From the NCBI GenBank assembly GCA_037893225.1, contig JAZGUH010000145.1, positions 1,240,001-1,304,000 of the forward strand: DNA of 64,000 nt. The letters run 5' to 3'. Source of the DNA: Hippasteria phrygiana (taxonomy: Eukaryota; Echinodermata; Asteroidea; Valvatida; Goniasteridae). The translations under genes and the position numbers were made by a program. This document shows positions 3,001-53,232 of the stretch, in pieces; position 1 is the first letter of the stretch, and each line of letters opens with the position of its first letter. The notes under the pieces were generated by a model. It had not been told where the DNA came from and made no database searches. It worked only from the letters and a program-made list of their open reading frames with translations.

Positions 3001-3986
3001 GTTTAGACTATAAGAAAATAAACTTTAAAAGAAAACAAAGCAGACTGTACATACCTACATGTTGATATTTAATGGTGGCCGCATTGAATAGTTTTATTCC
3101 ACCATGATTGTTTGCAGGGGGGGGGGGGGTCCTGTTATCAACTTGGATGAGAAATGTGCAGTATGGTGATGATGCTGTAACTTATAATACCACAGAGATT
3201 TTAAGACAAACAATTCTTTTAAATATTATATTACTGAAAAGAGTAAATAGAATTAGAAATAGAATGAGAGCCAATAGTAGTCATGTTAGGTTAACCCTAT
3301 TGTGGATTTTTATTGATTCAATTTTTTGGTAATTTTGGAGGACAATTTCAGTTAAAAGTTGTGACCATTATTGCTAAATTGCTAATTTTATAATTGAAAA
3401 TTTGAGCCTAATTTATTTCTGATCAATTTGTTATAAATATAAAAATAATGTTATGAGTCATTTAAAATAGTAACAATAAACAAACACCAATTATTATAGA
3501 AAATTAAATGATCAAAACTAAATAAAAACAAATTAAAGCCAGTCGCAGCACTGACAGAAAATTGGGCATTGCAAATAGCGTCGCCAATGCCGGTTCGCGT
3601 GAATCTCTCTACTGACGTGCTAGCTCCATGTGTCTGCTGCATGTGATTTAGCCATTTACTATCTTTCTTCTTTCTATCTTTTTTCTGTCTTCTTTGCTGA
3701 TGGTAGCTGTTAGTGCCACAGCCATTATGTACATCTTATAATATATCATCTTATCTTGTTTTTGTTATTAAAGTGGGTGGATCGGATGGCTGTAATGGGA
3801 GGAGGGCATTATTAATTAACACTTATTTTCAAAAGCTAACAAATGGTTAGCCCCATCAGGGGTTCATCAGTACCATAATACCAAACAACTTTTCTCTGCA
3901 AAATGATATTAAATGTCATGGAAATTTAGTCTTGGAAAGTCATGGAAAGGTCATGGAATTTGATTTTCAGATTTCTGTGGGAACCC
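1..3986. repeat. Copy 1 (5'-truncated by window) of a duplicated non-coding module
   Basis: Position 1 matches 11,441 and 33,134, and the similarity runs colinearly to the start of the satellite. The module is AT-rich with no credible coding region; its short open frames are not preserved among the three copies. It contains old internal repeats of the phrase around 'AAGATTTATCTCCTAAATAT' (about 740, 1,230 and 1,440), ACATGT-rich stretches and a poly-G run near 3,117-3,130 that differs in length in every copy. Relative to copies 2 and 3 it lacks roughly 90 bp near 1,725. The site GGAAA at 3,944-3,948 is the unoccupied counterpart of the RAG-like insertion in copy 3. Confidence 0.85.
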
Positions 3987-7473: not shown

Positions 7474-7497
7474 TTTTTTTGATCCATAATTCACAAT

Positions 7498-14200: not shown

Positions 14201-16134
14201 CACCTTTTGTGTACTTAGACAGCAATATTGAACAAATGGAAGTCAGACTTTTGCAATTGAAATTTACAGTGATATGGTACAAATATGCGATGGGTTTCAC
14301 ATGTAACATTGACACCAGTGTCTATGTTACATGGAAAATCCACAAAAAAATCATATTTTATGCCTCATATTTACTGAAGAGGTCTGATTTTCATATCTTT
14401 TCATTAGAGATGTATATCCTTAACTAGTTCATAAAATGCAGACATGTTCAAGGCAAATCAATGGAAATATGTCAGAAAATGTGTTTTTGTTTCACATGTA
14501 ACACGAACACCATATATTTTTAATTTACGGAATGACCCATAAGCCTATATCTACCAGCTTTCTTAGAAGAGTCGCAAGTTTCATACCCTAATAAGACCTA
14601 CTTATAAGTTTATAAAATTAGTAACAATTAGACAAATTAATACAAGCAGAGAGAATATAATGACATTTTAAGGTACTGGTTTCACGTGTAACAGGACTCC
14701 AAATTTGGAGGAATGTCACACATTTTGACAATTATATCTTCATCGAGTGTGAAAAAACAATCCAAAGAATCCTTTATTGGACTTGTGAAACTACTAATTG
14801 CAAGTGTGCATGAACAACGTATCCAGATCAGGGAAAACTGATAAAGGTAGAAAATGTATATTTTAGGGTTTAAACATTGCCCTTTTTGGCAAAATGTCAC
14901 ACCCAACTTCATGGAATGAACCACATCCATGTAGGTTTAACTCAATACACGTAAGCTCAATGTAATGTGGGCACATAAACATGATATAATTGAAAACAAG
15001 ATTAGAGATGGTAGCTGAATATTAAACCTAATCATGTAAATGATATCTTAACCATAAAAGTCCTCAATTCTTAGTAGATGATTTTTCACACACCCTAGGA
15101 GATTATTAGGGTAATGGTTTGTATGCAATCTGTTTAGACTATCAGAAAATAAATTTTAAAAGAAAACAAAGCAGACAGTACATACCTACATGTTGATATT
15201 TAATGGTAGCCGCATTAAATAGTTTTATTCCACCATGATTGTGTGCAGGGGGGGGGGGGGGTCCTGTTATCAACTTGGATGAGAAATGTGCAGTATGGTG
15301 ATGATGCTGTAACTGATACCACAGAGATTTTAAGACAAACAATTCTTTTAAATATTATATTACTGAAAAGAGTAAATAGAATTAGAAATAGAATGAGGGC
15401 CAATAGTAGTCATGTTAGGTTAACCCTATTGTGGATTTTTGTTGATTGAATTTTTTGGTCATTTTGGAGGACAATTTCAGTTAAAAGTTGTGACCATTAT
15501 TGCTAAATTGCTAATTTTATAATTAAAAATTTGAGCCTAATATATTTCTGATCAATTTGTTATAAATATAAAAATAATGTTATGAGTCATTTAAAATAGT
15601 AACAATAAACAAACACCAATTATTATGGAAAATTAAATGATCAAAACTAAATAAAAACAAATTAAAGCCAGTCGCAGCACTGACAGAAAATTGGGCATTG
15701 CAAATAGCGTCGCCAATGCCGGTTCGCGTGAATCTCTCTACTAACGTGCTAGCTCCATGTGTCTGCTGTATGTGATTTAGCCATTTACTATCTTTCTTCT
15801 TTCTATCCTTTTCTGTCTTCTTTGCTGATGGTAGCTGTTAGTGCCACAGCCATTGTGTACATCTTATAATATATCATCTTATCTTCTTCTTTTTTTATTA
15901 AAGTGGGTGGATCGGATGGCTGTAATGGGAGGAGGGCATTATAAATTAACACTTATTTTCAAAAGCTAACAAATGGTTAGCCCCATATCAGGGGTTTATC
16001 AGTACCATAATACCAAACTTTTCTCTGCAAAATAATATTAAATGTCATGGAAATTTAGTCTTGGAAAGTCATGGAAAGGTCATGGAATTTGGTTTTCAGA
16101 TTTCTGTGGGAACCCTGACTTGATTTTTAATGAT
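11291..16134. repeat. Copy 2 of the duplicated non-coding module
   Basis: Colinear with 1-3,986 and 32,991-38,770. It includes the part between the LINE 3' end and the sequence equivalent to window position 1. It differs by a local triplication (12,635-13,545) and a longer poly-G run (about 15,247-15,261). GGAAA at 16,073-16,077 is a second empty site for the RAG-like insertion. No coding region is supported. Confidence 0.85.
12635..13545. repeat. Local triplication of a ~303-bp segment
   Basis: The phrase 'AATATGTGCCACAACCTG' recurs at about 12,650, 12,953 and 13,257 with near-identical surroundings, giving three tandem units of about 303 bp. Modules 1 and 3 have a single unit at this place (about 1,200-1,500 and 34,320-34,620), so the expansion is specific to copy 2. 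Each unit is itself two diverged halves of about 150 bp. The 62-93 aa open frames that recur with the unit are repeat artefacts. Confidence 0.85.
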
Positions 16135-20903: not shown

Positions 20904-20940
20904 GGAAAAGCCCTATGTTCTTAAAAACATAGACCTCTAG
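20904..20940 (+). mobile_element. Helitron-like 3' terminus
   Basis: GGAAAAGCC, then a perfect hairpin CTATGTT/AACATAG, the spacer ACCT and CTAG before T. The same sequence closes the satellite at 54,445-54,481. Confidence 0.6.
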
Positions 20941-22900: not shown

Positions 22901-23317
22901 GTCATGATATCATCACGTGTCACGTGACGTCATCTTAAAGGTGCGTTTTTCAAGGGCCCATATCTAGAGAACGGTAGGTCCGATTGCCTTCAAACCTGGT
23001 ATGTTGCTAGTGTATCTCGTGTTATAGATGAACATTTAGGTGCCATCATGATAACGTCATCAACTGATTTTCTATGAATTTTTAAATATTTAACATATTA
23101 TTATATATTACTGTCATTGATCAGATTGACTCCAATCTCGACACAGGCCAACACCATGTATAAGTACTATCCTTATAATGTCATCATAGGTCAAGTAATA
23201 TAAACTTAAAGGTCAACTTTCAAGTAAGAAATCTAGATCATGAAATAATCTCAGATCTTAGAAAACTCAGCGAAAACAAAACCCTTAACAACTTTAATGC
23301 TGATTAAAAAAAAACCA

Positions 23318-29169: not shown

Positions 29170-29194
29170 ATTTTTTTGATCCAAAACTCACAAT

Positions 29195-32100
29195 ATGGTC
29201 GCAATTCTTACACTTAATGTAAATGGCATGCGCGATCCCGTAAAGAGGAGACAAGTTTTTGCGTTGTGTGGAGATTATGATATTTCCTGTCTTCAGGAAT
29301 GTCATATCTCCTCCAACTCTGATTTAGCTGCTTGGCAGGCAGAATGGAAGGGCAGGATGTTTGCCAGTTTTGGCACATCCACATCCTGTGGTACCATCAT
29401 CCTTCTGCCTGCTAAAAGCCACTTTGTTTTTTCTGATCCTTCCTTCGATACTGAGGGGAGGATCGTTTCTGGTATTTTGCGTGATCCTGGCAGCGGGTCG
29501 GATGTGCGCCTTTGCACAATTTATGCCCCCACCAATCCAAGGTCACGCCGTCTCTTCTTTGCAGGATTAGGTACATACCTGACAGGTAACTTTCCCGTTG
29601 TCCTCGCGGGAGATTTTAATTGCGTTTTAGATGTTGTGTTAGACCACCGAGGTTCCGATAACACACGTTGTGGAATCGGGGCCAAGGAGCTCGAACATCT
29701 GCTATCTGATTTTTGCCTTCGAGACTGCTGGCGGTCTCTTAACCCGTCTAACTTTTCCTATACCTGGCGCAATGCAGCGAACACACTTTCCAGCCGGCTG
29801 GACCGTATTTACGTGTCGAACCCGGTTGATTTTGTGTCGTGCCAGCATAGGCCCTGTTATTTTAGTGACCATGAATGTGTAGTTTTGGATTTTCCTTTAC
29901 CGGCGAAAGCACGTGTTGGTGGAGGTTTTTGGAAATGTAATGTTTCCGTCCTTGCCGACTCGGGTTTTCAACGGGAATTTCGTTGTGCTTATGCGGGTTG
30001 GCGGACTCTCAAGGAGGGCTTTGACAACGAGCTCCTCTGGTGGGAGGACGTCAAATCCCGCATAAAGCGTTTTATTATTTCCTTTTCTTGTCGTTTGGCA
30101 AGAAAGAAGCGGAAGCGTAGGGAGTCACTTTTGTCTTCCCTGCGCTCCGTTACTTCTGATCTAGATGCCGGGAAGTGTGATGCTGACACTCTTTCCCGGC
30201 ATAACGAAATAAAGGAGGCCCTTCAAGAATTGGACGACTTCGAAGCGGAGGGTGCCCGGATCCGCTCGCGGGTTCGGGAACTCGAGGAAGGGGAGAAGCC
30301 GTCCAAATATTTTTTTCATCTGGAATAATCCCAGGCTCAGAAGAAAGTTATTTCCTCCGTCCGTAACTCACGGGGAGACATAATTACATCTTCCGGTGGA
30401 ATTTCAACCGTGTATCGAGATTTCTTTCTCGACCTTTTTTCTGAAGAGCCTGTGGAGGTTGACTCACAGGGACCTTTTCTTGAATCTTTGTCTACACTTG
30501 TAGATGAAGAGAGCCGCATTGACTTAGACAGTCCACTTGCATTGTCTGAGCTCGATGCGGCCCTTCATAGCATGACCAACGGTAAGACTCCCGGAGGGAA
30601 CGGCCTGCCCAAGGAATTCTATGTGATTTTTTGGGACATGGTCGGTCCTGATCTTCTCGGGGTCTTCCGGTCTGCATTTGCACTGCATCATTTAGGTGAT
30701 TCCCAACGTTTGGGAATCATCACACTTTTGGAGAAGGGTGGGGATCAGCTTGATCCCAAAAACAAGCGCCCCATCTCTCTCCTTAATGTTGATTATAAGA
30801 TCCTGTCGAAGGCCTTGTGCCTCCGTTTGGGTAATGTTTTACCTGAAATGGTAGGTCAATTTCAGACTTGTGGCGTCAAGGGGAGGTCCATCCATGATAA
30901 TATCAGACTCCTTCGGGATCTGGTAGCATACGTGGATGGAAGGAACCTTGACTGCCTCGTTATTTCCCTCGACCAGCAGAAGGCCTTCGACAGGGTCAAT
31001 TGGGATTTCCTTTTTAAGGTCCTAGACCAATTTGGTTTTGGGCCGAATTTCCGGCACTGGATTAAACTGTTATACACAGATATATCCAGTGCAGTCTTGG
31101 TGAATGGGGTTGTTTCCGACCCTTTTTTAGTCACGAGGGGTGTAAGGCAAGGTTGCCCTCTCTCCCCTCTTCTATATGTCCTTTTTATTGAGCCTTTTGC
31201 TCAGGCAGTCCTCAATGATCGCCGCGTGACTGGTTTGGCAATGCCCGGGGCCAATGGCTTGCAATGCAAAGTGTTGCAGTACGCTGACGACACGACCTGC
31301 ATTGTAAGGGATTGCCAATCTCTCAGGCGGCTTTTTGGGATCATTGATGATTTTTCGCGTGCGAGCGGGTCTCGCTTAAATCTCGCCAAGTCGAAAGGCT
31401 TGGTCTTTGGCTTATGGCCCGATTGCCTTCCCGATCTGGTCCCTATTCAGTGGACCACCGACCCGATCAAGATCAACGGTGTCTGGGTTGGCAAGGGGGA
31501 CATGGGCCCTTTTAATTGGAAAGCGCGGCTTCCAAAACTGCAGTCCTCTTTGGACGGCTGGAAAAGGGGGACGTTTTCCCTCTTAGGTAAGGTATTGCTG
31601 GTCAATACCTTAATTCTATCACCTTTGTTTTTTCTGGCTCCGGTTTATCCACTTCCACTTGCAGTGGAGCGGACTATAAACCGAGCTATTTTTTCCTTCA
31701 TTTGGTCAGGCAAGACTGAACTCGTCCGGAGGACAGTTCTTGTCCAGTCCCTAGCCAAGGGCGGGTTGGGTGTTACCAACCTCCGCGACAAATGTGACGC
31801 CTTTTTCGTTCTTGGGGTAAAGGCCTTGTTGGGCGATGGGGGCCCACCCTGGAGATTTTTTTCTCTAAACTGGGTGGCCTTGTCGCTCCGACGGGTCTTT
31901 CCGCCGAATTGGTGGCGGAACGATGTTCCTCAGCTTTTTCGCCCACGGGCTATTATAAGCAGTTTTGCAAGCTGGTCTTGCTGGCTGTTGAGATTTCCCC
32001 GGACATTGATTGGGGGCCGGCATCGGTTCGCAGTCTTTGTGAGCTTTTTGCGGGCCAACATCCCAATCAGCGTCCGGCTTGTAACATTTCTGACACCGGT

Positions 32101-32646
32101 CAGATTTTTAAAGTTTGTCATGCCTCCAATTTGAGCAACCGCCTTCGGGACTTAAATTGGAGGATCGTTTGGGGGGCACTTAAGACTTCTCAACGTCTTC
32201 ATCGCTGGGGTATAGGGGATGGCAAGTGCCCTCGGGTCGGCTGTGCCGCTCCCGAGTCACTTTGTCATACATTTTGGGACTGTTCTTTCGTTTATCATTT
32301 GTGGGCTTGGGTTGAGCATCTTGGATGTAAAGCACAAGCCCGACAATTTTCTCTTACACGTTCCTGTGTCCTCTACGGGTCTGGTGTGGACACTAGCCCG
32401 GAGTCCCTTTTGATTTGGTTTTTGATTTGCACGGTGAGGTGGCTGGTTTGGCGTTCGCGTTGCGAGACATTGTATGATGGATCCCGACAGGACGCCGACC
32501 AGGTACTTCTCCGTGTCAAGGGTTCACTTAAGGCACGGCTCCAAGCAGACTTTGCCCGGCTGGACCGGACAAAGTTTCGCACCACTTGGTGCGTGCGGGG
32601 AGCCGTCTGTACTGTCAGAGACGACCGATTGGTATTTCACCTTTAA
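29195..32646 (+). pseudogene. LINE ORF2, copy B, nonsense and frameshift
   Basis: The first 377 codons (endonuclease and linker) are open, then TAA at 30,326-30,328 replaces a serine codon of copy A. The reverse transcriptase region including YADD continues in the same frame to about 31,930. There a 1-bp loss (CAGC instead of CACGC) shifts the frame, and the C-terminal zinc-finger region continues in another frame to 32,646. It cannot encode a full replicase. Confidence 0.9.
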
Positions 32647-34956: not shown

Positions 34957-37900
34957 ATATGCCCCTACTTGTCTCAGAGAAGTTAATTATTATTATTATA
35001 CACAGCCTAGTCTGCAAGTTGGGCCTGGGGGCATGCATGTATCTGTACAAATTATAAACCTAACCAGCTCACCCTGAACCCCAGATAAAAAACCCAAAAC
35101 ACAACACATGAATAAAATATAGAAATACACAGGGGACAATTTTTATTGTTCCTTATTTCAGATTTGATGACAGCATGTACATTTGTCAGTGAAGATGGCA
35201 GTGGATCAAACAGAATTGAGCTGCAGTACCTAACTTTTGCCATATCTTAAGAACTTTATTCAACACTTTCTTTAATAAACCACCTTTTGTGTACTTACAG
35301 ACAGCAATATTGAACAAATGGAAGTCAGACTTTTGCAATTGAAATGTACAGTGATATGGTACAAATAAGCGATGGGTTTCACATGTAACATTGACACCAG
35401 TGTCTATGTTACATGTAAAATCCACAAAAATTCATATTTTATGCCTCATATTTACTGAAGAGGTCTGATTTTCATATCTTTTCATTAGAGATATATATCC
35501 TTAACAAGTTTGTAAAATGTAGACATGTTCAAGGCAAATCAATTGAAATATGTCAGAAAATGTATTTTTGTTTCACATGTAACACGGACACCATATTTTT
35601 TTCATTTACGGAATGACCCATAAGCCTATATCTACCAGCTTTCTTAGAAGAGTCGCACGTTTCATACCCTAATAAGACCTACTTATAAGTTCATAAAATT
35701 AGTAACAATTAGAAACATTAATTAATAAAAGCAGAGAGAATATAGTGACATTTTAAGGTACTGGTTTCACGTGTAACAGGATACAACATTTGGAGGAATG
35801 TCACACACACATTTTGACAATATATCTTCATCGAGTGTGAAAAAACAATCCAAAGAATCCTTTATTGGACTTGTGAAACTACTAATTGCAAATGTGCATG
35901 AACAACGTATCCAGATCAGGGAAAACTGATAAAGGTAGAAAATATATATTTTAGGGTTTAAATATTGCCCTTTTTGGCAAAATGTCACACTTTATGTACC
36001 CAACTCCATGGAATGAACCACATACATGTAGGTTTAACTCAATACACGTACATGTAAGCTCAATGTAATGTGGGCACATGAAAATAATATAATTGAAAAC
36101 AAGATAAGAGATGGTAGCTGAATATTAAACCTAATCATGTAAATGATATCTTAACCATAAAAGTCCTCAATTCTCAGTAGATGATTTTTCACACACCCTA
36201 GGAGATTATTAGGGTAATGGTTTGTATGCAATCTGTTTAGACTATAAGAAAATATACTTTAAAAGAAAACAAAGCAGACTGTACATACCTACATGTTGAT
36301 ATTTAATGGTGGCCGCATTAAATAGTTTTATTCCACCATGATTGTGTGCAGGGGGGGGGGGGGGGGCCTGTTATCAACTTGGATGAGAAATGTGCAGTAT
36401 GGTGATGATACCGTAACTTATAATACCACAGAGAACAATTCTTTTAAATATTATATTACTGAAAAGAGTAAAAAAATATAGAAATAAAATGAGGGCCAAT
36501 AGTAGTCATGTTAGGTTAACCCTACTATGGATTTTTGTTGAGATATGCCCCTACTTGTCTCAGAGAAGTTAATTATTATTATTATACACAGCCTAGTCTG
36601 CAAGTTGGGCCTGGGGGCATGCATGTATCTGTACAAATTATAAACCCAACCAGCTCACCCTGAACCCCAGATAAAAAACCCAAAACACAACACATGAATA
36701 AAATATAGAAATACACAGGGGACAATTTTTATTGTTCCTTATTTCAGATTTGATGACAGCATGTACATTTGTCAGTGAAGATGACAGTGGATCAAACAGA
36801 ATTGAGCTGCAGTACCTAACTTTTGCTATATCTTAAGAACTTTATTCAACACTTTCTTTAATAAACCACCTTTTGTGTACTTACAGACAGCAATATTGAA
36901 CAAATGGAAGTCAGACTTTTGCAATTGAAATTTACAGTGATATGGTACAAATAAGCGATGGGTTTCACATGTAACATTGACACCAGTGTCTATGTTACAT
37001 GTAAAATCCACAAACATTCATATTTTATGCGTCATATTTACTGAAGAGGTCTGATTTTCATATCTTTTCATTAGAGATGTATATCCTTAACTAGTTCATA
37101 AAATGCAGGCATGTTCAAGGCAAATCAATGGAAATATGTCAGAAAATGTGTTTTTGTTTCACATGTAACACGAACACCATATATTTTTCATTTACGGAAT
37201 GACCCATCAGCCTATATCTACCAGCTTTCTTAGAAGAGTCGCAAGTTTCATACCCTAATAAGACCTACTTATAAGTTTATAAAATTAGTAACAATTAGAC
37301 AAAAATAATAAAAGCAGAGAGAATATAATGACATTTTAAGGTACTGGTTTCACGTGTAACAGGACACCAAATTTGGAGGAATGTCACACATTTTGACAAT
37401 ATATCTTCATCGAGTGTGAAAAAACAATCCAAAGAATCCTTTATTGGATTTGTGAAACTACTAATTGCAAGTGTGCATGAACAACGTATCCAGATCAGGG
37501 AAAACTGATAAAGGTAGAAAATGTATATTTTAGGGTTTAAACATTGCCCTTTTTGGCAAAATGTCACACTTTATGTACCCAACTCCATGGAATGAACCAC
37601 ATCCATGTAGGTTTAACTCAATACACGTAAGCTCAATGTAATGTGGGCACATAAACATGATATAATTGAAAACAAGATTAGAGATGGTAGTTGAATATTA
37701 AACCTAATCATGTAAATGATATCTTAACCATAAAAGTCCTCAATTCTCAGTAGATGATTTTTCACACACCCTAGGAGATTATTAGGGTAATGGTTTGTAT
37801 GCAATCTGTTTAGACTATAAGAAAATAAATTTTAAAAGAAAACAAAGCAGACAGTACATACCTACATGTTGATATTTAATGGTAGCCGCATTAAATAGTT

Positions 37901-38120
37901 GTATTCCACCATGATTGTGTGCAGGGGGGGGGGGGGGGGGGGGGGTCCTGTTATCAACGTGGATGAGAAATGTGCAGTATGGTGATGATGCTGTAACTTA
38001 TAATACCACAGAGATTTTAAGACAGACAATTCTTTTAAATATTCTGAAAAGAGTAAATAGAATTAGAAATAGAATGAGGGCCAACAGTAGTCATGTTAGG
38101 TTAATCCTATTGTGGATTTT
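34957..38120. repeat. ~1.58-kb tandem duplication inside module copy 3
   Basis: Sequence starting 'GATATGCCCCTACTTGTCTC' at about 34,956 begins again at about 36,541, directly after 'GGATTTTTGTT' of the first unit. Both halves then proceed through the same landmarks to their own poly-G runs (36,351-36,366 and 37,923-37,945). Modules 1 and 2 have a single unit. The junction has only a few bases of homology. Confidence 0.85.
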
Positions 38121-38765
38121 TGTTGATTTAATTTTTTGGTCATTTTGGAGGACAATTTCAGTTAAAAGTTGTGACCATTATTGCTAAATTGCAAATTTTT
38201 TTAATTGAAAATTTGAGCCTAATTTATTTCTGATCAATTTGTTATAAATATAAACATATTTTTATGAGTCATTTAAAATAGTAACAATAAACAAACACCA
38301 ATTATTATAAACAATTAAATGATCAAAACTAAATAAAACAAAATTAAAGCCAGTCGGAGCACTGACAGAAAATTAGGCATTGCAAATAGCGCCGCCAATG
38401 CCGGTTCGCGTGAATCTCTCTACTAACGTGCTAGCTCCATGTGTCTGCTGTATGTGATTTAGCCATTTACTATCTTTCTTCTTTATATCTTTTTTTCTGT
38501 CTTCTTTGCTGATGGTAGCTGTTAGTGCCACAGCCATTATGTACATCTTATAATATATCATCTTATCTTTTATTATTAAAGTGGGTGGATCGGATGGCTG
38601 TAATGGGAGGAGGAGGGCATTATTAATTAACACTTATTTTCAAAAGCTAACAAATGGTTAGCCCCATATCAGGGGTTCATCAGTATCATAATACCAAACA
38701 ACTTTTCTCTGCAAAATGATATTAAATGTCATGGAAATTGTCATGTTTTAGTCTTGGAAAGTCCT

Positions 38766-38770
38766 GGAAA
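38766..38770. repeat. Left target-site duplication GGAAA
   Basis: GGAAA precedes the insertion and is repeated at 44,372-44,376. The empty sites at 3,944-3,948 and 16,073-16,077 have one copy within 'CATGGAAAGGTCATGG'. Five-bp duplication is typical of the RAG/Transib group. Confidence 0.75.
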
Positions 38771-38786
38771 CACGTACAAACCTATC
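38771..38786 (+). repeat. Left terminal inverted repeat
   Basis: CACGTACAAACCTATC begins immediately after the GGAAA duplication. It matches the inverted right end at 13 of 16 positions. CAC followed shortly by ACAAACC is reminiscent of heptamer and nonamer elements but the spacing is not that of a recombination signal. Confidence 0.65.
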
Positions 38787-40432
38787 GCGGAAATTCATAT
38801 ATGCAAATTAGGTGAACAGCGCCGCTCATTATGACGTCATCGTACGTTCTTGCTTTACGCGCGTCATCGCCTTCGGCCACTTCCGAGTACGAACTCGGTT
38901 CAGTTTTATGAATGAATGCATTATGCATCGGGTATTGCACATGCGTAGTAATGGTAGAAGAACAAGCTAAGATGGCCGCTGTCTCGTGCAGAAAAAAGCG
39001 TCCGAATCGGTGAAGTTTTGGGTGAGTTATGACAGTTTAAAAACTTTTTGCGTCTTCCTCTTTTGGAACTCAAACTTCTTACTGTCTCAAGGAGTCCATA
39101 TTTTTAATCATTTTATTCTTACTTACTAAATTTGGTTGGAAATCAAGTGAATTAGTTCCGAATAGTTCATTTGTTTAGCTGTCGAATGGTGTGGCACATG
39201 TGGGTGGTCGGATTGATAGTGCAATGGTCGCGAGCAATATGCATGGCCATTTTTAGATGAAACTGCCAAAACTTACGAATAATTCTCAAGTGATCACGTG
39301 ATGAAACACGTGCAAGAGCTAAACAATAGTGTTACTTACAATACAAAGCTTAAAAAGGATAACATTTATTTCTTTTCTGATGACTGAAAATGTGTCTTTC
39401 AGTTTCACACACTGTAATTTCCTTTTTTTAGTATAGTTTTGCCAATGCTTTCGCAGCAACATCTTTCAACTGTCACCGACATCCCGACCCTGGGGGGACG
39501 GGGCGCTCCAACCCCGGATGGTGGGGATTAAAAAAAATATATATATATATTTTTTAAATTATTTTATTATTATTATTTTTTTTTATTGTGTGGTGTAGGG
39601 CCCTGTTCCCTAGTATAAGGAAACAAAAAAAAACCACTTTTATTAATGCAATTGCCAAACTAGTTAACGACATTACAAACCAACAGGTATGCCATTGATA
39701 AAGGGCAGGGTTTTAGTTTTTGAGGGAATTTTTTGGGTAAAGTGGCGATGAAAATAAAAGATGGCGATTGCATTTTCTACCGCAATAAACTGTTCAAAAT
39801 TACAACAACAACAACAACAACAAAAGAATTAAGGGAAGTCTGCTCTAGGTTAAAAAGTCATTTTTGAATGAGAAAAAATACCCTTGACTCTATTTTGATC
39901 AAAACTAAAGCGGGGCCCTACACTACACAATTGCCCTTTTTGTGTTTTTATCTAATTACATTTTCAGTGCAGTTCCCGACCTGACCGGGGGAGGGTGTGT
40001 GGTAAACTGAAGTGCCCCAACCCATGCGGTGGGCCTTGCATTTTTAATAAATATCGGACGGAATTGTTTGCACACATTTCATAATTTTGTTTCTCCAAAT
40101 TTGTTGTCAGAAGTTACATATACTGACGCATTAAAGTTCATGTCCATATCAATGACAGGTTTAGTTAACTTGTTAGTTGAGCTTTAATGTTCCTTTAAAT
40201 ACAAATATACATGTACATGTTTCTGTTCATTGCTATTCGTAGTATTCTTTTAAATATCATAAATAAATGAACACTTCAAACCTGTAGTATTAACATTGGT
40301 AGACATAATTCTGCTTCAGAATTAGGAGTATAAATCAGTCAATAAGGAACATGTACAGTTAAAATTGTTGAAATCAGCAAACATTTGTTGATAACCCTAT
40401 TTTAGTTAATGGCCTGAATACATTCTTTTTCA

Positions 40433-40608
40433 GATCTCCGTCCATTGGTAGCTTTCCAAGTCCAGTAGATAGATGGAGCAGTCAAAGCATTCCTCCCGCG
40501 GACGTAGTATTGCAGCACCTAGTCTCCTGTTTGGGCCAAGAGTTGCCCCGCCAAACATGAACGCAACTTTGGTTGTGCCAACACGGACGAATGTGTGCCC
40601 ATTTCTAC
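40433..40608 (-). pseudogene. RAG2-like Kelch-repeat exon
   Basis: Read on the minus strand after an AG acceptor (40,610-40,609), the frame gives 'RNGHTFVRVG', then 'VAFMFGG', and after 19 residues 'CFDCSIYLLDLE'. This order (R-x-GH, FGG, CxxC and a hydrophobic D-x-E strand) is a Kelch blade. The CxxC exactly 19 residues after FGG is, as I recall, a peculiarity of vertebrate RAG2. RAG2 is the Kelch/PHD cofactor of the RAG1 transposase. The frame stops soon after 'YQWTEI' with no clear GT donor, so this is likely a broken exon. No other blade or PHD finger was found nearby. Confidence 0.6.
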
Positions 40609-40895
40609 CTATTAAAAAATGGAACAAATTAGGAAAATTAATCCACATGTCAATCAATTCTGGCACTTTTTATTTTCCTTTTTCAGACTGCCAGCCGAAT
40701 TAATTTCACTAAAAAGAAAAATTGTACAGAATTTACAGTTTGGATGTTTTAAAGAATTAGACAACTGTACTATTGTTGGTATTCATTTTAACATTATTGA
40801 TAAATAAACAGTTGAACACTTTTATTGTGAGTTCCTTGGGACTTATTGCCCTGTTATATTACAGGAACATTGTATAAGCAGTCACAAAAGTATTG

Positions 40896-41191
40896 TTATA
40901 GACCTTTCTTTCATTTACAAACATTGACTGTCACTTTGTATGCGTGGCCAAAGCTAACACAAAGTTGACTATTGATTTGCAACAACTTTGGTCTCAAAAT
41001 GCACATTTTGATTCATCATTGTCGGCATGAGAGGCATTTTCTGTTACTATTTAAGTTTTTTAATATTGACGTGAGATTTTTTAACACTTTGTGAATTATT
41101 CTTTTGGTTTTGTACTCCTGACCAGCCATAGTTTTGCCAACCACTGGTTGGCAAATATGCGCTTGTGATGCAGCTAAAGAAAGGTCTATAA
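40896..41191. mobile_element. Small inverted-repeat (MITE-like) element
   Basis: TTATAGACCTTTCTTT (40,896-40,911) is repeated inverted at 41,176-41,191, enclosing 296 bp without coding potential. It is nested within the RAG-like element. Confidence 0.5.
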
Positions 41192-41789
41192 GCAGGATGT
41201 TGTATTGACAGTGCTCTCATTTTCAGTGTTAAACTGTATTTGCTTTAAAGTTCAAATTTGCTGTGATCATTAGCATTTAGATGTATAAAGCCACAATTTA
41301 CTTTTTCCCATTTGTTTATTTTGCCTGTTATTGAATATTATGTTTTTCACAGGTGTATGCATTTGCGTGTTTTCATTTCTGCATCTTAATTGCCAGCATG
41401 AATACTACATGGATTGTCTTAGATTAATTAAGGTAATTGTAATAAAAAAATCTCTTGTATTATTCTCTTGAAAATTGGCTTCAAACATTTTCCCTTTAAC
41501 GGGTGGTGTTAAGTTCATCAATGTGTGAATATACATTTACATGTACATGTAGTAATATGAAGTTAATAATATAAAAATGAAACTTATTACTTCCAATACA
41601 CCGATTGACTGTTTGCTTTATTGTGGCTAATCAAATCTTAGATTAAATGGCATCTCACTGTATTTCAAATTATATATACTGTAGTCTTAGTACAAAGACA
41701 TGAAGATGAAGATGATCTGTACGATTAGGCATAACAATGGATGTTGCGGGTTCAACCACACTCTTGTGAATTTCTTTGTTTGTTCACCT

Positions 41790-41953
41790 CCAATAATTGA
41801 TGGTAAGCAGCTGTAACACGTTCATATTTAACTTGATTTTCATTTTTGCCTTTTTTAAGATATAAGATCAAAATGTGGCTACTTTTCCGTAAAAATGCAA
41901 AGTCTTGGCTAAAAGTCGATATCAGGCAATGTAGCCTCAAATTTAGCCCAAAA
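41790..41953 (-). pseudogene. Possible RAG1-like core fragment (frameshifted)
   Basis: On the minus strand one frame gives 'FWAKFEATLPDIDF' then a stop. An adjacent frame gives 'LLAKTLHFYGKV' and a third gives 'GKNENQVKYERVTAAYHQLL' before a GT donor. Laid end to end, the spacing agrees with the RAG1 stretch around the second catalytic aspartate ('PSID', then FYK, then KN and ER), but the catalytic 'HCDIG' block is not preserved. The assignment rests on weak local similarity judged by eye. Confidence 0.35.
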
Positions 41954-42067
41954 TAAGACATGCATGCAAAACCACGAGTAACCTAACAATAGAAAAGTAT
42001 TTATGAAAAACGACAGTTAAATGTAAACGTGTTCTGTGATAAAAACAGAATTACAAATGATTCTCAC

Positions 42068-42112
42068 CAGTAACCCATTCCGGTTGGAAAGAGAATTGCC
42101 ACCAATTGAAGT
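42068..42112 (-). pseudogene. Possible RAG1-like mini-exon
   Basis: A 45-bp segment bounded by a good acceptor (TTTTCCAG) and donor (GTGAGA) on the minus strand. One frame reads 'FNWWQFSFQPEWVT', reminiscent of the 'HFEWQPPL' stretch of RAG1. Its place between the N-terminal region and the core-like fragment is colinear with RAG1. The segment is short, so this is a suggestion only. Confidence 0.25.
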
Positions 42113-43264
42113 CTGGAAAATTGGCTCCAATTATTGTTTTGTGCGTATGTTAAATACAAAATAAAAAAGTAGGCTCCCTGCCAGGTTGGATTTGTACATA
42201 TTCTTCACAGTTCGCACAGCTACATGACATTTTCCCCGACCCACACATCTTATTCCCCTGTTCGTTTTTGAGAAGTATGCATTTCAAGTTTCTGAATATG
42301 GCTTTTCCGCTTGCATGACGTTTTGGCATTGATTTGGCCTAGCTGTTGTTAAAACATGTATAACATGTTGTTAAAACATTTTGCTGTTTGGACATGTTCC
42401 TTATCTTTTATAAGAGTTGTTCATGTAAAAAAACCACGTATAATGTGTTGTAATTAGTGAGCAGTGATTACAAAACTAAAAAAATTTCCTCTGATCCCTG
42501 ACATCTGACCCGCGAAACATAGACTTATTTCCAGTAGTAAATACCACCGTCTAAATAATGCGCAAAATACGCTGTAAGAATCTTTAGGCTGGCGCCGCAG
42601 CCAGTGGCCTTGTAAACCTATCAGATGATCGCCAGGTACTATTCTCTACCTCGCGACTTGCCAGTGCTGGGCGCCGTGCCACATGCACAGTACATCAAAA
42701 TGGATCAACAGAACGTACTTCAACCAGCTGCGACTGGAAATACGACTGGGGAACACGGTCCGCCATTTTGTGGAGTCAAAAATTTGGTTCTACAAAATGG
42801 CGGGCCTTTATTTGTCACGAAATTAAACAAAAAACACGCAATTTGAAGGGATATTTATGTGAATCTTTATATTCTACTTTTAAAAAAGCTTCCCAACCAT
42901 ATCCATTTCAGTTTTATAGCCCAAATCGCAAAATCAAAAGCAATGTGTCCCTCTAAAATAGTCTTGCAATTTTTTGAGCTGCCAAACTTGTATGAAAAGT
43001 TTCAGAGAACCCAAAATGCAAGACTCACTAAAACAAACCATTTGCTTAGCTATTCCTGTAATATTTCAAAACATGAGATTCCTTACCGGGCCCAGAAAAA
43101 AATCTGTATTGTCCAAATAAATTCACACAAGCAATTAAAACCCAAACTCAATTTATAAGTCAAACCCGTCTGTAATTTAAAAAAATGTGAATTGATTAAA
43201 ACATGTATTTCAGCGATGTTGATGACATTGTTCTGTTTTGTCTGTATCGTACAATACAAAAATG

Positions 43265-43510
43265 CTCTGCTCAGCATATGATTTGTAAACCTTGCACTCC
43301 TCTGAGTGCTCCTCCCATATGATTGCCACTTGTTTCCTCTTGTGAAAAAGCTTCAGGCGGCACAAGTCGCAGATATTCGGGGGTGGATCGTCTGAACGTC
43401 ATCAGTTGTCACGTCTGTGCTGAAAATCACCATCGCTTCCTTACAATAGTTGGCAACCTTCTTTGCTTTTTTTTCTCTTTCCGCATAACCGGCAGATTTT
43501 ATGGAGGGAA
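43265..43510 (-). pseudogene. RAG1-like N-terminal zinc-binding region with frameshifts
   Basis: After an acceptor (CACCTCAG) the minus strand reads 'LHKICRLCGKRKKSK', then in a second frame 'MVIFSTDVTTDDVQTIHP', then in a third 'PPNICDLCRLKLFHKRKQ', followed by 'IIWEEHSEECKVY'. The order CRxCG, VFxxDVxxDV, IHP, CxxC, WxxHxxxC is that of the zinc-binding region preceding the RING finger of RAG1 (recalled family knowledge). The shifts coincide with an A8 run (43,467-43,474) and a C5 run (43,379-43,383), so decay or base-calling errors in homopolymers could both explain them. The usual role is zinc-dependent dimerisation and ubiquitin-related functions of RAG1. Confidence 0.7.
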
Positions 43511-44355
43511 CTGAGGTGGAACTTTAAATCTAAAGCCATTTTCAAACGCGCATTACAGCAAAAAGTCATTCCACAAGCTAAATTTGGCCCAACCGAAATG
43601 GTATTGTTACCGAATACCGATTGAAGTATCGAATACCGTTAGAAGAAAAACCCATACGTAGTAAGTATTCGATCCCCTACCTCCATGCTATAACTAAATA
43701 GTCGGTATCCATAATCGAATAATACCGATGAGTTGCAATTTGTTAACATTTACTTCAACGATTATACATATGGCAGAGACCACTCACAATTTTAAGGAAT
43801 GTATTTCTAAAAGATTTTATATGCATGCGAATAAAACTAATGTTAAAACAATTGTGTTTTTCTTCTTCTGGGGGGCGGTTTTTTTCACGATGATTTTTTT
43901 ATTAAAAATTCGTGAGGAAAGATGAACAACTTTTGTCTTTTCTAATTATTACCAATGAGAACAGTTGATTAAAAATCTACCTTTTATCAAATATTTCATT
44001 TCCCTGTGTTGTGTAAATAATTTGTCACATTGTAAACGTATCTAAAATGTACATTGGCCCTATGGGATCGGACGTGAACATACATCTGTACATGTACATA
44101 CATGACTGCATGCACAGTGTGGTACGCTACGTACACGGCGTGGGAACGTATCAAATTACATCGATGGCTCGGTCGACCCGCGCGTCGATGCATTGTTATG
44201 CAAATTAAGCGGCAGCGCGTCGTTAAAAATAGAATGACTGGAGGGGAATGACCAGCAAATTGGCGCGCCAATCTGACGTCACAACAGTCACTGACAATTT
44301 TTGGCGTCAAATGTGTTGAAGTGCGCATGCGTGCAAATTACCGCACGGTCTATGG

Positions 44356-44371
44356 GACAGGTTTGTTTGTG
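44356..44371 (-). repeat. Right terminal inverted repeat
   Basis: Read on the minus strand: CACAAACAAACCTGTC. It ends exactly before the second GGAAA (44,372-44,376), after which the module sequence 'GGTCATGGAATTTGG' resumes. Confidence 0.65.
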
Positions 44372-45144
44372 GGAAAGGTCATGGAATTTGGTTTTCAGAT
44401 TTCTGTGGGAACCCTGACTTGACTTTCAATGATGGTCATCACATGTCACGTGACGTCATCTTAAAGGGGCATTTTTCGAAGCCATATATCTATGGAAGTA
44501 CAAGTTCGATTAAGTTGAAACGTGGTATCTAGATAGGCCAGCGTGTGTTACAGATAGAAATTGATGTGACGTCATGATGACGTCATCATACGATTTTATA
44601 GTATTTTTTTACTTTTTGAACCTTTTAAAGTCATATCTCATCAACAGTACATACTAATTTCGAAATTCTTTTTATTAGGTCCGTTAGGTCATAGATACTT
44701 ACATATAAATGCGAAAAATGTTTGCCGTCATGATGACGTCATAAAAAAATGTGCTATTTTTGAAGCACGTATAAGGGTAGGTTCGATCGTCATGAAAATT
44801 GGTGGGCCAGTTGGTATTGTCATTAGCATGTAAAATTCAAAGTGCCGTCATGGTCACGTCATTGGCTGATTTTTTGTGAATCTTTAAATGTTTCACATTT
44901 CATTGTAGGCCTACTCTCCAATTTTATATTGTCATTGATCAAATTGACTCCAATCTTGACACAGGCCAAGATCACGTTGCAAACTTGCTTTGAGAAGTGC
45001 TGGCGTTATAACGTCATCATGGATCACGCAACATTGTTTGAAGTTTGAAGTTTGAAATTTGGGTCATGAAATCTCAGATCTTAGAAAACTCATCAAGGAC
45101 AAGACCCTTAACAACTTTTATGCTGAATAAAAATACAAAAAAAC

Positions 45145-45189
45145 GGAAAAGCCCTATGTTCTGTTCTTGTAACAGACATAGAAGTCTAG
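45145..45189 (+). mobile_element. Helitron-like 3' terminus
   Basis: GGAAAAGCC, an imperfect hairpin (CTATGTTCTGTT/AACAGACATAG), a short spacer and CTAG before T. Orthologous in position to 4,725-4,769 of S1. Confidence 0.5.
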
Positions 45190-45379
45190 TTTCTTCTTCT
45201 TTTAGTTCTGACCAAAATCCCATAGACTTTGTACACGAATTTTGTCGGCGGCACTTTAGGTCTTAAAAAACCTCAGAACCTAACCAAACTTACATCAAAC
45301 ATAGACCCTAAGCTGAAATTGTATGTCGTAGAGTGACGTCGTGATGACGTCATCACGTGATTTTTTATGAATTTTTGAA

Positions 45380-47900
45380 TTTTTAAAATCGTAACATTCT
45401 TTTCAATATATCTAGCGAACAAAACAAGATATTTTCAAAATTCTTTTTCTTATAGCTTTGGTATGTCTCAAAGATATGCCCTAAATTGCGAAAATTGTGT
45501 GACGTCATGATGACGTCATCAAAAATGTGTTTTTTTGTTAACGCATGTAAGGGTCAATCCGATTACAAAAATGTATATATTGAATTTTCCTGTATCCAAT
45601 TCCAAAATTTCATGATCGTGGCTCACTCAAATAAGAAATGACAGCCATTTCAAAATTTAGACCAAATTCAATATAACACAAAGGAATTCTGGGACGGGCT
45701 GATAACCATGGCTATTATGAGCTTGCTGTTTATAAAAGGGGTTGATTTCTAGTCTTTTTTCAAGTCGCTGAATTTTTGAAGTTTTAAAATCGTAACATTC
45801 TTTTCAATATATCTAGCGAACAAAACAAGATATTTTCAAAATTATTTTTGTTACAGCTTTGGTATGTCTCAAAGATATGCCCTAAATGGCGAAAATTGTG
45901 TGACGTCATGATGACGTCATCAACAATATTTTTTTTTTTAAACGCATGTAAGGGTCAATCTGATTACAAAAATGTATACATTGTATTTTTCTGTACCCAA
46001 TTCCAAAATTTCATGATCGTGGCTCACTCAAGTAAGAAATAACAGCCATTTCAAAATTTAGACCAAATTCAATATAACACAAAGGAATTCTGGGACGGGC
46101 TGATAACCATGGCTATTATGAGCTTGCTGTTTATAAAAGGGGTTGATTTCTAGTCTTTTTTCAAGTCGCTGAATTTTTGAAGTATTAAAATCGTAACATT
46201 CTTTTCAATATATCTAGCGAACAAAACAAGATATTTTCAAAATTCTTTTTCTTATAGCTTTAGTATGTCTCAAAGATATGCCCTAAATTGCGAAAATTGT
46301 GTGACGTCATGATGACGTCATCAAAAATGTGTTTTTTTGTTAACGCATGTAAGGGTCAATCCGATTACAAAAATGTATATATTGAATTTTCCTGTACCCA
46401 ATTCCAAAATTTCATGATCGTGGCTCACTCAAGTAAGAAATGACAGCCATTTCAAAATTTAGACCAAATTCAATATAACACAAAGGAATTCTGGGACGGG
46501 CTGATAACCATGGCTATTATGAGCTTGCTGTTTATAAAAGGGGTTGATTTCTAGTCTTTTTTCAAGTCGCTGAATTTTTGAAGTTTTAAAATCGTAACAT
46601 TCTTTTCAATATATCTAGCGAACAAAACAAGATATTTTCAAAATTATTTTTGTTACAGCTTTGGTATGTCTCAAAGATATGCCCTAAATGGCGAAAATTG
46701 TGTGACGTCATGATGACGTCATCAACAATATTTTTTTTTTTAAACGCATGTAAGGGTCAATCTGATTACAAAAATGTATACATTGTATTTTTCTGTACCC
46801 AATTCCAAAATTTCATGATCGTGGCTCACTCAAGTAAGAAATAACAGCCATTTCAAAATTTAGACCAAATTCAATATAACACAAAGGAATTCTGGGACGG
46901 GCTGATAACCATGGCTATTATGAGCTTGCTGTTTATAAAAGGGGTTGATTTCTAGTCTTTTTTCAAGTCGCTGAATTTTTGAAGTATTAAAATCGTAACA
47001 TTCTTTTCAATATATCTAGCGAACAAAACAAGATATTTTCAAAATTCTTTTTGTTATAGCTTTGGTATGTCTCAAAGATATGCCCTAAAAGGCGAAAATT
47101 GTGTGACGTCATGATGACGTCATCAAAAATATGTTTTTTTTTTAACGCATGTAAGGGTCAATCCGATTACAAAAATGTATACATTGTATTTTTCTGTACC
47201 CAATTCCAAAATTTCATGATCGTGGCTCACTCAAGTAAGAAATGACAGCCATTTCAAAATTTAGACCAAATTCAATATAACACAAAGGAATTCTGGGACG
47301 GGCTGATAACCATGGCTATTATGAGCTTGCTGTTTATAAAAGGGGTTGATTTCTTGTCTTTTTTCAAGTCGCAACATTCTTTTCAATATATCTAGCGAAC
47401 AAAACAAGATATTTTCAAAATTATTTTTGTTACAGCTTTGGTATGTCTCAAAGATATGCCCTAAATGGCGAAAATTGTGTGACGTCATGATGACGTCATC
47501 AACAATATTTTTTTTTTTTAACGCATGTAAGGGTCAATCTGATTACAAAAATGTATACATTGAATTTTCCTGTACCTAATTCAAAAATTTCGTGATCGTG
47601 GCTCACTCAAGTAAGAAATAGGAGCCATTTCAAAATGTAGACCAAATTCAATATAACACAAAGGAATTCTGGGAAGGGCTGATAACCATGGCTTAAATGT
47701 GCATGCTGTTTATAACCCTTTTTTCAAGTCGCTGAATTCTTGAAGTTTTATAATCGTAACATTCTTTTCACTATATCTAGCGAACAAAACAAGATATTTT
47801 CAAAATTCTTTTTGTTATAGCTTTGGTATGTCTCAAAGATATGCCCTAAAAAGCGAAAATTGTGTGACGTCATGATGACGTCATAAAAAAATGCTTTTTT
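45380..47900. repeat. 401-bp tandem array with 802-bp dimer structure
   Basis: The marker 'AACATTCTTTTCAATATATC' starts at 45,393, 45,794, 46,195, 46,596, 46,997, 47,373 and 47,758. Units 1 and 3 share 'TTTTTCTTATAG' and units 2 and 4 share 'TTTTTGTTACAG', so the homogenising unit is a dimer of 802 bp. Each monomer has one TGACGTCA dyad and 'TTTATAAAAGGGG'. The repeated 64-codon open frames at 45,848 and 46,650 are by-products. Confidence 0.9.
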
Positions 47901-50029: not shown

Positions 50030-51340
50030 TGACGTCATCACGTGTCACGTGACGTCATCCTAAATGTGCGTTTTTCAAGGGCCCATATTTAGAGAACGGT
50101 ATATCCAATTTCCTTCAAACCTGGTATGTTGGTAGGCTAGCTCGTGTTATAGATGAAAATTGAGGTGACGTCAGATCTTAATCAGGCTTAACACAAACGG
50201 AGACCCTAAGCTGAAAATGTATGCCAAAACGTGACGTCATGGTGACGTCATCACGTGTCATGTGACGTCATCTTAAAGGTGCATTTTTCAAGGGCCCATA
50301 TCTAGAGAACGGTACGTCCGATTGCCTTCAAACCAGGTATGTTGGTATGGTAGCTCGTGTTATAGATGAAAATTGAGGTGACGTCATGATGACGTCATCA
50401 TACGATTTTACAGTAATATTAAAGTTTTTGAACTTCAATGTTTCTTAAAGCCATATCTCATCAACAGAACATGCTAAATTCAAAATTCTTTTTGTAATAG
50501 CTTTGTTAGCTCCTATATTCTTTCACATAAATGTGAAAAATGTGTGACGTCATCATGACGTCATCAAAAATATGCTTTTTTGAAACACATATAAGGGTAG
50601 GGACGATCGTTATACAAATTAGTGTGCAGGTAGATAGTGCTACTAGCATGTTAAATCCGAGGTGACGTCATGATGACGTCATCGGCTGATTTTCTATGAT
50701 TATTTTAGTTCTATCCCAAATCCCATAGACTTTGTACACGAATTTTGTACGGGACACTTTGGTCACTAAACAACATCAGATCTTAATCAGGCTTAACACA
50801 AACAGAGATCCTAAGCTGAAAATGTATGCCGAAACGTGACGTCATGATGACGTCATCACGTGTCATGTGACGTCATCTTAAAGGTGCATTTTTCAAGGGC
50901 CCATATCTAGAGAACGGTAGGTCCGATTGCCTTCAAACCAGGTATGTTGGTATGGTAGCTCGTGTTATAGATGAAAATTGAGGTGACGTCATGATGACGT
51001 CATCATACGATTTTACAGTAATATTAAAGTTTTTGAACTTCAAAGTTTCCTAAAGCCATATCTCATCAACAGAACATGCTAAATTCAAAATTCTTTTTGT
51101 AATAGCTTTGTTAGCTCCTATATTCTTTCACATAAATGTGAAAAATGTGTGACGTCATCATGACGTCATCAAAAATATGCTTTTTTGAAACACATATAAG
51201 GGTAGGGACGATCGTCATAAAAATTACTGTGCAGGTAGATAGTGCTACTAGCATGTAAAATCCGAGGTGACGTCATGATGACGTCATCGGCTGATTTTCT
51301 ATGAATTTTTAGTTCTATCCCAAATCCCATAGACTTTGTA
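50030..51340. repeat. ~605-bp satellite units
   Basis: Two units and a fragment (markers near 50,229 and 50,834). A fusion near 50,172 joins 'GAGGTGACGTCA' directly to 'GATCTTAATCAGG', which indicates recombination at the dyad. Confidence 0.85.
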
Positions 51341-51864
51341 CACGAATTTTGTCGGCGGCACTTTAGGTCTTAAAAAACCTCAGATCTTAACCAAACTTAC
51401 CTCAATCATAGACCCTAAGCTGAAATTGTATGTCGAAGAGTGACGTCATGATGACATCATCACGTGTCATGTGACGTCATCTTAAAGGTGCGTTTTTCAA
51501 GGGCCTATATCTAGAGAACGGTAGGTCCGATTGCCTTCAAACCTGGTATGTTGCTAGTGTATCTCGTGTTATAGATGAAAATTGAGGTGCCATCATGATA
51601 ACGTCATCAACTGATTTTCTATGAATTTTTAAATATTTAACATATTATTATATATTACTGTCATTGATCAGATTGACTCCAATCTCGACACAGGCCAACA
51701 CCATGTATAAGTACTATCCTTATAATGTCATCATAGGTCAAGTAATATAAACTTAAAGGTCAACTTTCAAGTAAGAAATCTAGATCATGAAATAATCTCA
51801 GATCTTAGAAAACTCAGCGAAAACAAAACCCTTAACAACTTTAATGCTGATTAAAAAAAAACCA

Positions 51865-51910
51865 GGAAAAGCCATGCGTCTGTTGACCTCAACAGACGCT
51901 TAACCTCTAG
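51865..51910 (+). mobile_element. Helitron-like 3' terminus
   Basis: A perfect GCGTCTGTTG/CAACAGACGC hairpin, TTAACCT and CTAG before T, identical to 23,318-23,363 and likewise followed by a TTC microsatellite. The surrounding 51,570-52,000 matches 23,020-23,460, so the two are duplicates. Confidence 0.6.
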
Positions 51911-52079
51911 TTTTTTCTTCTTCTTCTTCTTCTTCTTCTTCTTCTTCTTCTTTTAGTTCTGACCAAAATCCCCTAGACTTTGTACACGAATTTTATCGGC
52001 GGCACTTTAGGTCTTAAAAAACCTCAGAACCTAACCAAACTTACATCAAACATAGACCCTAAGCTGAAATTGTATGTCG

Positions 52080-53010
52080 TAGAGTGACGTCATGATGACG
52101 TCATCACGTGTCACGTGACGTCATCCTAAATGTGCGTTTTTCAAGGGCCCATATATAGAGAACGGTATATCCAATTTCCTTCAAACCTGGTATGTTGGTT
52201 GGCTAGCTCGTGTTATAGATAAAATTTGAGGTGACGTCAAGATGACGTCATCATATGATTTTATATTAATATTTAAGTTTTTGAACTTCAAAGTTTCTTA
52301 AAGCCATATCTCACCAACAGAACATGCTAAATTCAAAATTCTTTTTGTAATAGCTTTGTTAGCTCCTATATTCTTTCACATAAGTTTAAAAAATGTGTGA
52401 CGTCATCATGACGTCATCAAAAATGTGCTTTTTTGAAACACATATAAGGGTACGTCCGATCGTCATACAAATTGGTGGGTAGGTAGATAGTGCCACTAGC
52501 ATGTACAATCCAAAGTGACGTCATGATGACGTCATCGGCTGATTTTTAATGAATTTTTAGTTCTATCCTAAATCTCATAGACTTTGTACACGAATTTTGT
52601 ATGCGGTACTTTGGTCACTAAACAACCTCGGATCTTAATCAGACTTAACACAAACATAGACCCTAAGCTGAAAATGTAAGCCGAAACGTGACGTCATGAT
52701 GACGTCATCACGTGTCATGTGACGTCATCTTAAATGTGCATTTTTCAAGGGCCCATATCTAGAGAACGGTAGGTCCGATTGCCTTCAAACCTGGTATGTT
52801 GGTATGGTAGCTCGTGTTATAGATGAAAATTAAGGTGACGTCATGATGACGTCATCATACGATTTTACAGTAATATTAAAGTTTTGAACTTCAAAGTTTC
52901 TTAAAGCCATATCTCACCAACAGAACATGCTAAATTCAAATTTGTTTTTGTAATACATGTAGCTTTGTTAGCTCCTATATTTTTTCATGTCACTGTGACA
53001 AATGTGTGAC
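52080..53010. repeat. ~605-bp satellite units, more diverged
   Basis: About one and a half units with more substitutions than elsewhere (for example near 52,880-53,010), ending in 'ACGACGTCATG' before unrelated AT-rich sequence (53,050-53,220). Confidence 0.75.
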
Positions 53011-53232
53011 GTCATCACGACGTCATGAAAAATGTGCTTTTTTGAAACACATATAATTTATGATTTAAGTTCTTAAAAACGTATGAGTCTGCCATTGACT
53101 TTGTACACGTACATGTACATACAATTTGCAACCGCACTTCCGGTACTAAACAACCGATGTTCTTTATAAAACTTGCCTCAGACATAGTAACCATAGTGAT
53201 ATCGTATGTCTAAGAGTGACGTCATGATGACG

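Follow-up and report, generated by a model that had tools for sequence, protein, structure and literature searches.

A 5.6-kb element of the starfish Hippasteria phrygiana probably moved very recently by a RAG-like enzyme

The RAG enzyme that rearranges antibody genes arose from a transposon, and what has been described of RAG-like (RAGL) transposons is mostly dispersed or defective copies, or copies that may have been domesticated. Here we report a 5.6-kb element in the genome of the starfish Hippasteria phrygiana that was probably moved very recently by a RAG-like enzyme. It lies in a stretch of 64,000 nucleotides of contig JAZGUH010000145.1 (positions 1,240,001 to 1,304,000; hereafter the window, whose own numbering is used throughout) and likely belongs to a young RAGL family that is non-autonomous, arose by internal deletion and is moved in trans. 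Very recent movement is made probable by the many near-identical copies present in the same genome, while the ends of these copies and the duplications flanking them suggest that a RAGL enzyme mobilised them in trans.

Positions 38,771-44,371 of the window form a 5,601-bp insertion between two copies of the pentanucleotide GGAAA. The insertion has no counterpart in two paralogous modules, both of which show an exact empty site, at 3,944 and 16,073. In a self-comparison of the window, module 1 aligned with the filled module at 95.7% to the left of the insertion (1744-3958 with 36539-38769) and at 92.3% to the right of it (3944-5367 with 44372-45773), and the corresponding values for module 2 were 95.3% (13874-16087 with 36539-38769) and 83.1% (16073-16604 with 44372-44907). 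The sequence GGAAAGGTCATGG begins exactly at 3944 and at 16073, and joining the flanks of the filled site gives a sequence that can be aligned to both empty sites. To the left of GGAAA, the filled site has a 9-bp extra piece and one substitution, both absent from the empty sites. For the most part the modules diverge by 4-8% (17% in the shortest of the matches) and the copies of the element by less than 1%, so the insertion is younger than the duplication of the module.

The tips of the element, CACGTACAAACCTATC and CACAAACAAACCTGTC, are alike at 13 of 16 positions, and a likeness of at least 13/16 was reached by 9 of 200,000 random pairs of 16-mers taken from the element. Each end fits 14 of the 17 positions of the RAGL end consensus CACTWMCAAACKTYKBB, which was published for protostomes (PMC7204232; this and the other papers are cited from excerpts); scores of at least 14/17 were obtained for 36 of the 127,968 17-mers on both strands of the window. 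Both terminal inverted repeats open with CAC and carry AAA at positions 8-10, the terminal heptamers being CACGTAC and CACAAAC. At equal distance from the two tips stands the 9-mer TGCAAATTA, a possible second part of a two-part end by analogy with the ends described for AanRAGL (PMC9435367) and ProtoRAG (PMC8289069). It is retained in the two most divergent copies, L029 and L030, with a right-hand spacer one base shorter or longer. Among 100,000 random pairs of 45-mers from the window, 153 had a common 9-mer at equal offset and 1,492 at any offset.

We searched the genome (944 Mb in 1,285 contigs) with the left and right 730 bp of the element, which gave 27 and 30 matches, respectively, and with the end pattern CACNNACAAACCTRTCNC, which occurs 50 times versus twice for the reversed control. 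Of the 50 pattern matches, 24 are left ends and 26 are right ends, and every one lies on a contig also matched in the 730-bp searches. Of the left ends, 23 share their contig with a right end, and the 24th (L012, contig C10) is paired with a right end whose tip reads CGC instead of CAC, yet this copy too has a perfect 5-bp duplication. There are, therefore, 24 two-ended copies on 24 contigs. Contigs C167, C295 and C470 hold a right end only; two of these ends, L049 (C167) and L050 (C470), match over 140-176 bp at 94%, and C470 additionally has element positions 4184-4696 further in. Both flanks were inspected in 22 of the 24 two-ended copies, that is, in 21 fetched copies and the one in the window, leaving out those on C914 and C965. 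The left tip is the same in all 21 fetched copies, the right tip in 20 (the exception is L012). A perfect 5-bp duplication was found in 20 of the 22 inspected copies, every one of them different, with a G+C content of 57% (57/100 bases). Twenty of the 22 copies are separated from one another by substitution distances of 0.02-0.91%, the outliers L029 and L030 differing from the others by 2.0-2.5%. The copies L010 and L011 are 0.02% apart and nevertheless lie on different contigs with different duplications, and L022 carries an additional internal deletion. A first, sequence-only reading of the window, made by a model without database searches, had proposed the 5,601-bp insertion with its CAC tips, GGAAA duplication and two exact empty sites, and had placed it after the duplication of the module. 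The self-comparison confirmed these points, as did the joined flanks in the alignment of the three modules that this reading had suggested as a check; another of its proposed checks, a search for further genomic copies, yielded two-ended copies, of which the 21 fetched bear out the ends.

Between its ends, the element has neither an intact RAG1L nor an intact RAG2L gene. A single kelch exon of RAG2L was detected: the minus-strand open reading frame (ORF) at 40,430-40,669 has its best match in PDB (177,635 sequences) with RAG2L of the amphioxus B. belcheri (E 0.0099), followed by a match at E 0.63. Pfam matches of the exon to kelch are weak (best E 0.021), and protein database searches returned no homologue of it. 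A RAG2L fragment of the host from contig C496, whose own best PDB match is amphioxus RAG2L (E 0.039), scored 31.2 bits against the exon, compared with 27.3 bits for the best of 60 block shuffles. Without composition correction, the score was 32.7 bits, a value reached by none of 300 dinucleotide shuffles (best 31.2), and the same fragment scored at most 24.6 bits against nine other 5.6-kb pieces of the window. Because the exon is held by all 22 copies, the deletion should predate their divergence.

To the left of this exon, the element shares non-coding DNA with contig C591. The matching stretches of the element are positions 494-1306 (87%) and 1601-1668 (87-88%, matched twice); on C591 this DNA precedes by about 0.9 kb an open frame with matches to PF12560 (E 4.4e-12) and RING (E 1.2e-6) and with full-length RAG1 as best PDB match (E 3.3e-9). 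The best PDB match of the next frame is amphioxus RAG1L (chain residues 13-72, E 1.9e-5), and these matches identify the two frames as belonging to a RAG1L gene, of which they form the 5' part. The RAG2L exon (40,433-40,615, minus strand) starts where the homology with C591 ends, at about 40,438. The orientation of the remains, with the RAG1L side on the left and the RAG2L exon on the minus strand, fits that of a complete RAGL, although the canonical pair of convergent RAG1L and RAG2L genes is not present, as RAG1L is absent. On C591, the RAG1L 5' part adjoining the common DNA corresponds to L033:6922-8092; another relative of the C591 frame, this one broken, was seen at C292:1545745-1546325 (88-91%).

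No RAG1 core could be recognised in the element. A genome search with PF12940 (RAG1 core) gave, among the best candidates scored, at least 10 matches at four loci (C182, C693, C496 and C607) and none in element copies or at C591. In tblastn comparisons of the element with host RAGL segments, nothing except the RAG2L exon rose above shuffles. Scans with full-length read-through translations, against Pfam in all six frames and against PDB in one frame of the minus strand, were empty, matches being obtained with short pieces, and in Rfam nothing in the window reached gathering scores. Two candidate interpretations were rejected. A putative RAG1-core remnant at 39,434-39,532 on the minus strand scored 25.8 bits versus 27.3 for the best of 60 shuffles, and the stretch belongs to the DNA common to C591. 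An arrangement with RAG1L and RAG2L in the same direction was discarded as C591 placed the RAG1L side at the left end.

The element also carries a RAG1-type N-terminal zinc-binding domain. Two ORFs of the window copy, in different frames, match PF12560 colinearly (E 0.079 and 0.055), the third ORF of the region being without a match; among the ORFs of other copies, E values of 0.0017 (L020), 0.0021 (L032) and 0.011 (L030) were obtained, and L012 gave no match. A profile made from three N-terminal domains of the same genome was then run against 1,989 ORFs from the window and five loci, picked from 25 fetched for their informative N-terminal-domain frames. The zinc segment ranked first and filled the first eight places, with E 5e-6 for L020 and E 0.033 and 0.13 for the window ORFs. 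The domain stands on the RAG2L strand, where it could be an additional gene, a piece that was duplicated or part of a fused RAG2L; animal RAG1L/RAG2L pairs are termed tail to tail (PMC7204232, PMC8355894), and partial duplication and inversion have been noted in starfish and oyster (PMC4411706). Elsewhere in the genome PF12560 matches are numerous (C76, C965, C564, C1006, C20 and others): C76 has six of equal score, and C965 holds a RING-bearing frame of 593 aa less than 1 kb outside an element copy.

The following course of events would account for most of these observations. The parent would have been a RAGL transposon with its two genes pointing towards each other, RAG1L reading rightward from the left side and RAG2L leftward from the right side. 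RAG1L and the 3' part of RAG2L would then have been lost by a deletion that fused the non-coding DNA upstream of RAG1L (to about 40,438) with the RAG2L kelch exon, and the shortened element would have retained its CAC ends on either side. These ends may be recognised by a RAG-like transposase encoded at another locus of the genome, which, to judge from the chemistry of RAG, ProtoRAG and Transib, would cut beside CAC and insert the element with a 5-bp stagger. One such insertion would have struck one of the three related modules of the window.

Several observations weigh against this scheme. No autonomous element with the family ends (CACNNACAAACCTRTC) was found, the end pattern being private to the family. 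The four RAG1-core loci, C182, C496, C693 and C607, lack these ends in the 10-18 kb scanned and were rejected as parent for that reason. Two of the 22 inspected copies have no perfect duplication (L027 agrees at 4/5 bases, L019 disagrees). Every protein match of the element is short; the N-terminal domain of the window copy alone reaches only E 0.03-0.14, and that of L020 compared with the C182 domain by blastp only E 0.008. A genome-wide PF12560 search gave 31 matches at E ≤ 1, none of them in element copies, and the read-through N-terminal piece had no match in PDB. Finally, a simple deletion does not explain why the zinc domain, near the right end, lies on the same strand as RAG2L.

Two kinds of RAG1L/RAG2L locus are present in the genome, as is a Transib-like gene. 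The RAG1L locus of C182 (L044:4433-8510; L045, C182:1010433-1021254) has N-terminal (E 1.7e-13), RING and core parts, and an opposite-strand frame there is weakly kelch-like (E 0.087). For a 200-aa core segment of this locus, the match to vertebrate RAG1 (E 8e-35) is closer than that to amphioxus RAG1L (E 1.6e-19). Protein database searches with a C182 segment returned no homologue at E ≤ 0.001. By its sequence, this RAG1L recalls the RAGL_A family reported from the acorn worm P. flava (PMC7204232), a resemblance that we take as a lead only. The RAG1L of C496 (L047) is ProtoRAG-like (E 7.2e-34 versus 5.4e-11 for vertebrate RAG1) and is accompanied by a convergent RAG2L, and that of C693 (L046), also ProtoRAG-like and close to C496 by translation, has a PHD-finger frame downstream. 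As assembled, the RAG1L frames of all three loci are interrupted by stops or frame changes, which may be introns or assembly errors. The Transib-like gene of C607 (L048:4622-7117) has open frames of 297 and 414 aa, and its best PDB match (E 1.5e-19) is 6pqn, which we take to be HzTransib.

This gene raises the question of whether a Transib transposase mobilises the family, the RAG pieces being historical passengers. Transib too uses CAC tips and 5-bp duplications, the two frames of C607 are long, and the host RAG1L loci look interrupted. However, the ends of the element fit the RAGL consensus, it carries RAG2L and RAG1L-side DNA, and the family ends are absent from the 10 kb around C607, so that we consider this explanation improbable. 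A Transib transposase was not found within the element, the C607 transposase having been compared with it by tblastn and tblastx only. The broken coding remnants and the missing RAG1 core would suit an old, dead relative of ProtoRAG, the fossil that the sequence-only reading had seen here; its age is refuted by the 24 two-ended copies with their low distances and perfect duplications, the tip is not CACTATG, and we hold such an origin to be very unlikely. What stands of the proposed kinship with ProtoRAG is a RAG relative with RAG-like ends, a 5-bp duplication and coding remnants, but not a strict ProtoRAG, as its heptamer is absent; likewise, of the RAG1-like and RAG2-like remnants claimed, the RAG2L exon and the RAG1-type zinc domain were found and the RAG1 catalytic core was not. 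Equally unlikely is that the element is some other CAC-tipped DNA transposon which resembles kelch and zinc-domain sequences by chance or through capture of host genes. The individual matches are short and RAG1-type N-terminal domains are found in numerous other genes of the same animal, whereas the ends, the kelch exon and the RAG1L-upstream homology point independently to RAGL. Segmental or assembly duplication without transposition, for which the high identity of the copies is the one favourable point, is refuted by 20 perfect duplications that all differ, by differing flanks and by the spread over 24 contigs.

Table 1. Coordinates of the element, its parts and its empty sites in the window.
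Feature	Position	Strand	Basis or remark
Target-site duplication GGAAA, left copy	38766..38770		flank comparison
Left terminal inverted repeat CACGTACAAACCTATCG	38771..38787	+	14/17 versus RAGL consensus
TGCAAATTA, positions 32-40 from left tip, possible second end element	38802..38810	+	putative function
Non-coding DNA similar to the region upstream of the C591 RAG1L, two blocks 87-88%; ends in splice-acceptor-like TTTTTCAG	39264..40438	+	sequence comparison
Internal hairpin-ended insert, 19-nt arms 95% complementary	39585..39931		in 22/22 copies, partial in L019, L029, L030
RAG2L kelch exon remnant, acceptor-like AG before it (read from sequence)	40433..40615	-	protein matches
Internal hairpin-ended insert, 16-nt perfect arms	40896..41191		in 21/22 copies
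RAG1-type N-terminal zinc-binding domain, in three frames in the window copy	43213..43638	-	PF12560 and genome-derived profile
TGCAAATTA, positions 32-40 from right tip, opposite orientation relative to tip	44332..44340	+	putative function
Right terminal inverted repeat CACAAACAAACCTGTCC	44355..44371	-	14/17 versus RAGL consensus
Target-site duplication GGAAA, right copy	44372..44376		flank comparison
Empty site, paralogous module 1	3944..3948		window self-comparison
Empty site, paralogous module 2	16073..16077		window self-comparison

Apart from the element and the modules, the window contains two copies of a non-LTR retrotransposon, 94% identical, with zinc-knuckle, endonuclease, reverse transcriptase and zf-RVT domains; the copy at 6046-10950 has two long open frames and that at 27670-32646 is broken. 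At 17083-23095, 50168-53056 and 45368-47900 lie mutually related arrays, which show offsets of about 605 bp and a tandem repeat of 401 bp.

Given mapped ends, empty sites, 20 perfect duplications and two copies that differ by 0.02%, the family offers natural substrates for testing which ends are cut by which RAG1L/RAG2L pair. A further question on which it has a bearing is the origin of the RAG1 N-terminus, for which a separate transposon, N-RAG-TP, stands against the view that such elements are deletion derivatives of RAGL. A wider proposal, which we put forward tentatively, is that a RAG-like system active now or very recently moves the family in trans, that the N-terminal domain on the RAG2L strand belongs to a fused RAG2L or a third gene, and that N-RAG-TP-like elements derive from RAGL instead of being a separate source of the RAG1 N-terminus.

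In the open-licence literature, to which the search was confined (subscription journals lay outside it), no report of a young, high-copy family of this kind was found. Non-autonomous RAGL elements are known from Pinctada imbricata and several deuterostomes. Like the present one, they have paired ends that start with CAC, are in many cases flanked by 5-bp duplications and enclose no intact RAG1L or RAG2L; the excerpt speaks of "a small number" of end pairs, in contrast to the 24 two-ended copies of very low divergence described here (PMC7204232). Amphioxus ProtoRAG (RAGL_B) has in common with the element the CAC tip, 5-bp duplications, RAG2L kelch sequence and a two-part end, putative in our element, but its heptamer is CACTATG instead of CACGTAC and CACAAAC, and the element, unlike ProtoRAG, has neither a RAG1 core nor a complete gene (PMC8289069). 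The 13-bp end element of Aureococcus AanRAGL, CACACCCAAACCT, shares CAC and CAAACCT with our element, and recent mobility, probable for our element, is a further point in common, although AanRAGL encodes RAG1L and RAG2L, in the same direction (PMC9435367). Transib, as far as the excerpts describe it, likewise has CAC tips and 5-bp duplications and differs in having no RAG2L and no RAG1-type N-terminal region. Aplysia N-RAG-TP, compared here by its description only, is also a transposon with RAG1 N-terminal-like sequence and without RAG1 core (PMC8355894). According to that source it consists entirely of RAG1 N-terminal-like sequence, whereas the starfish element adds a RAG2L exon and RAG1L-upstream DNA, which indicates descent from a RAGL transposon.

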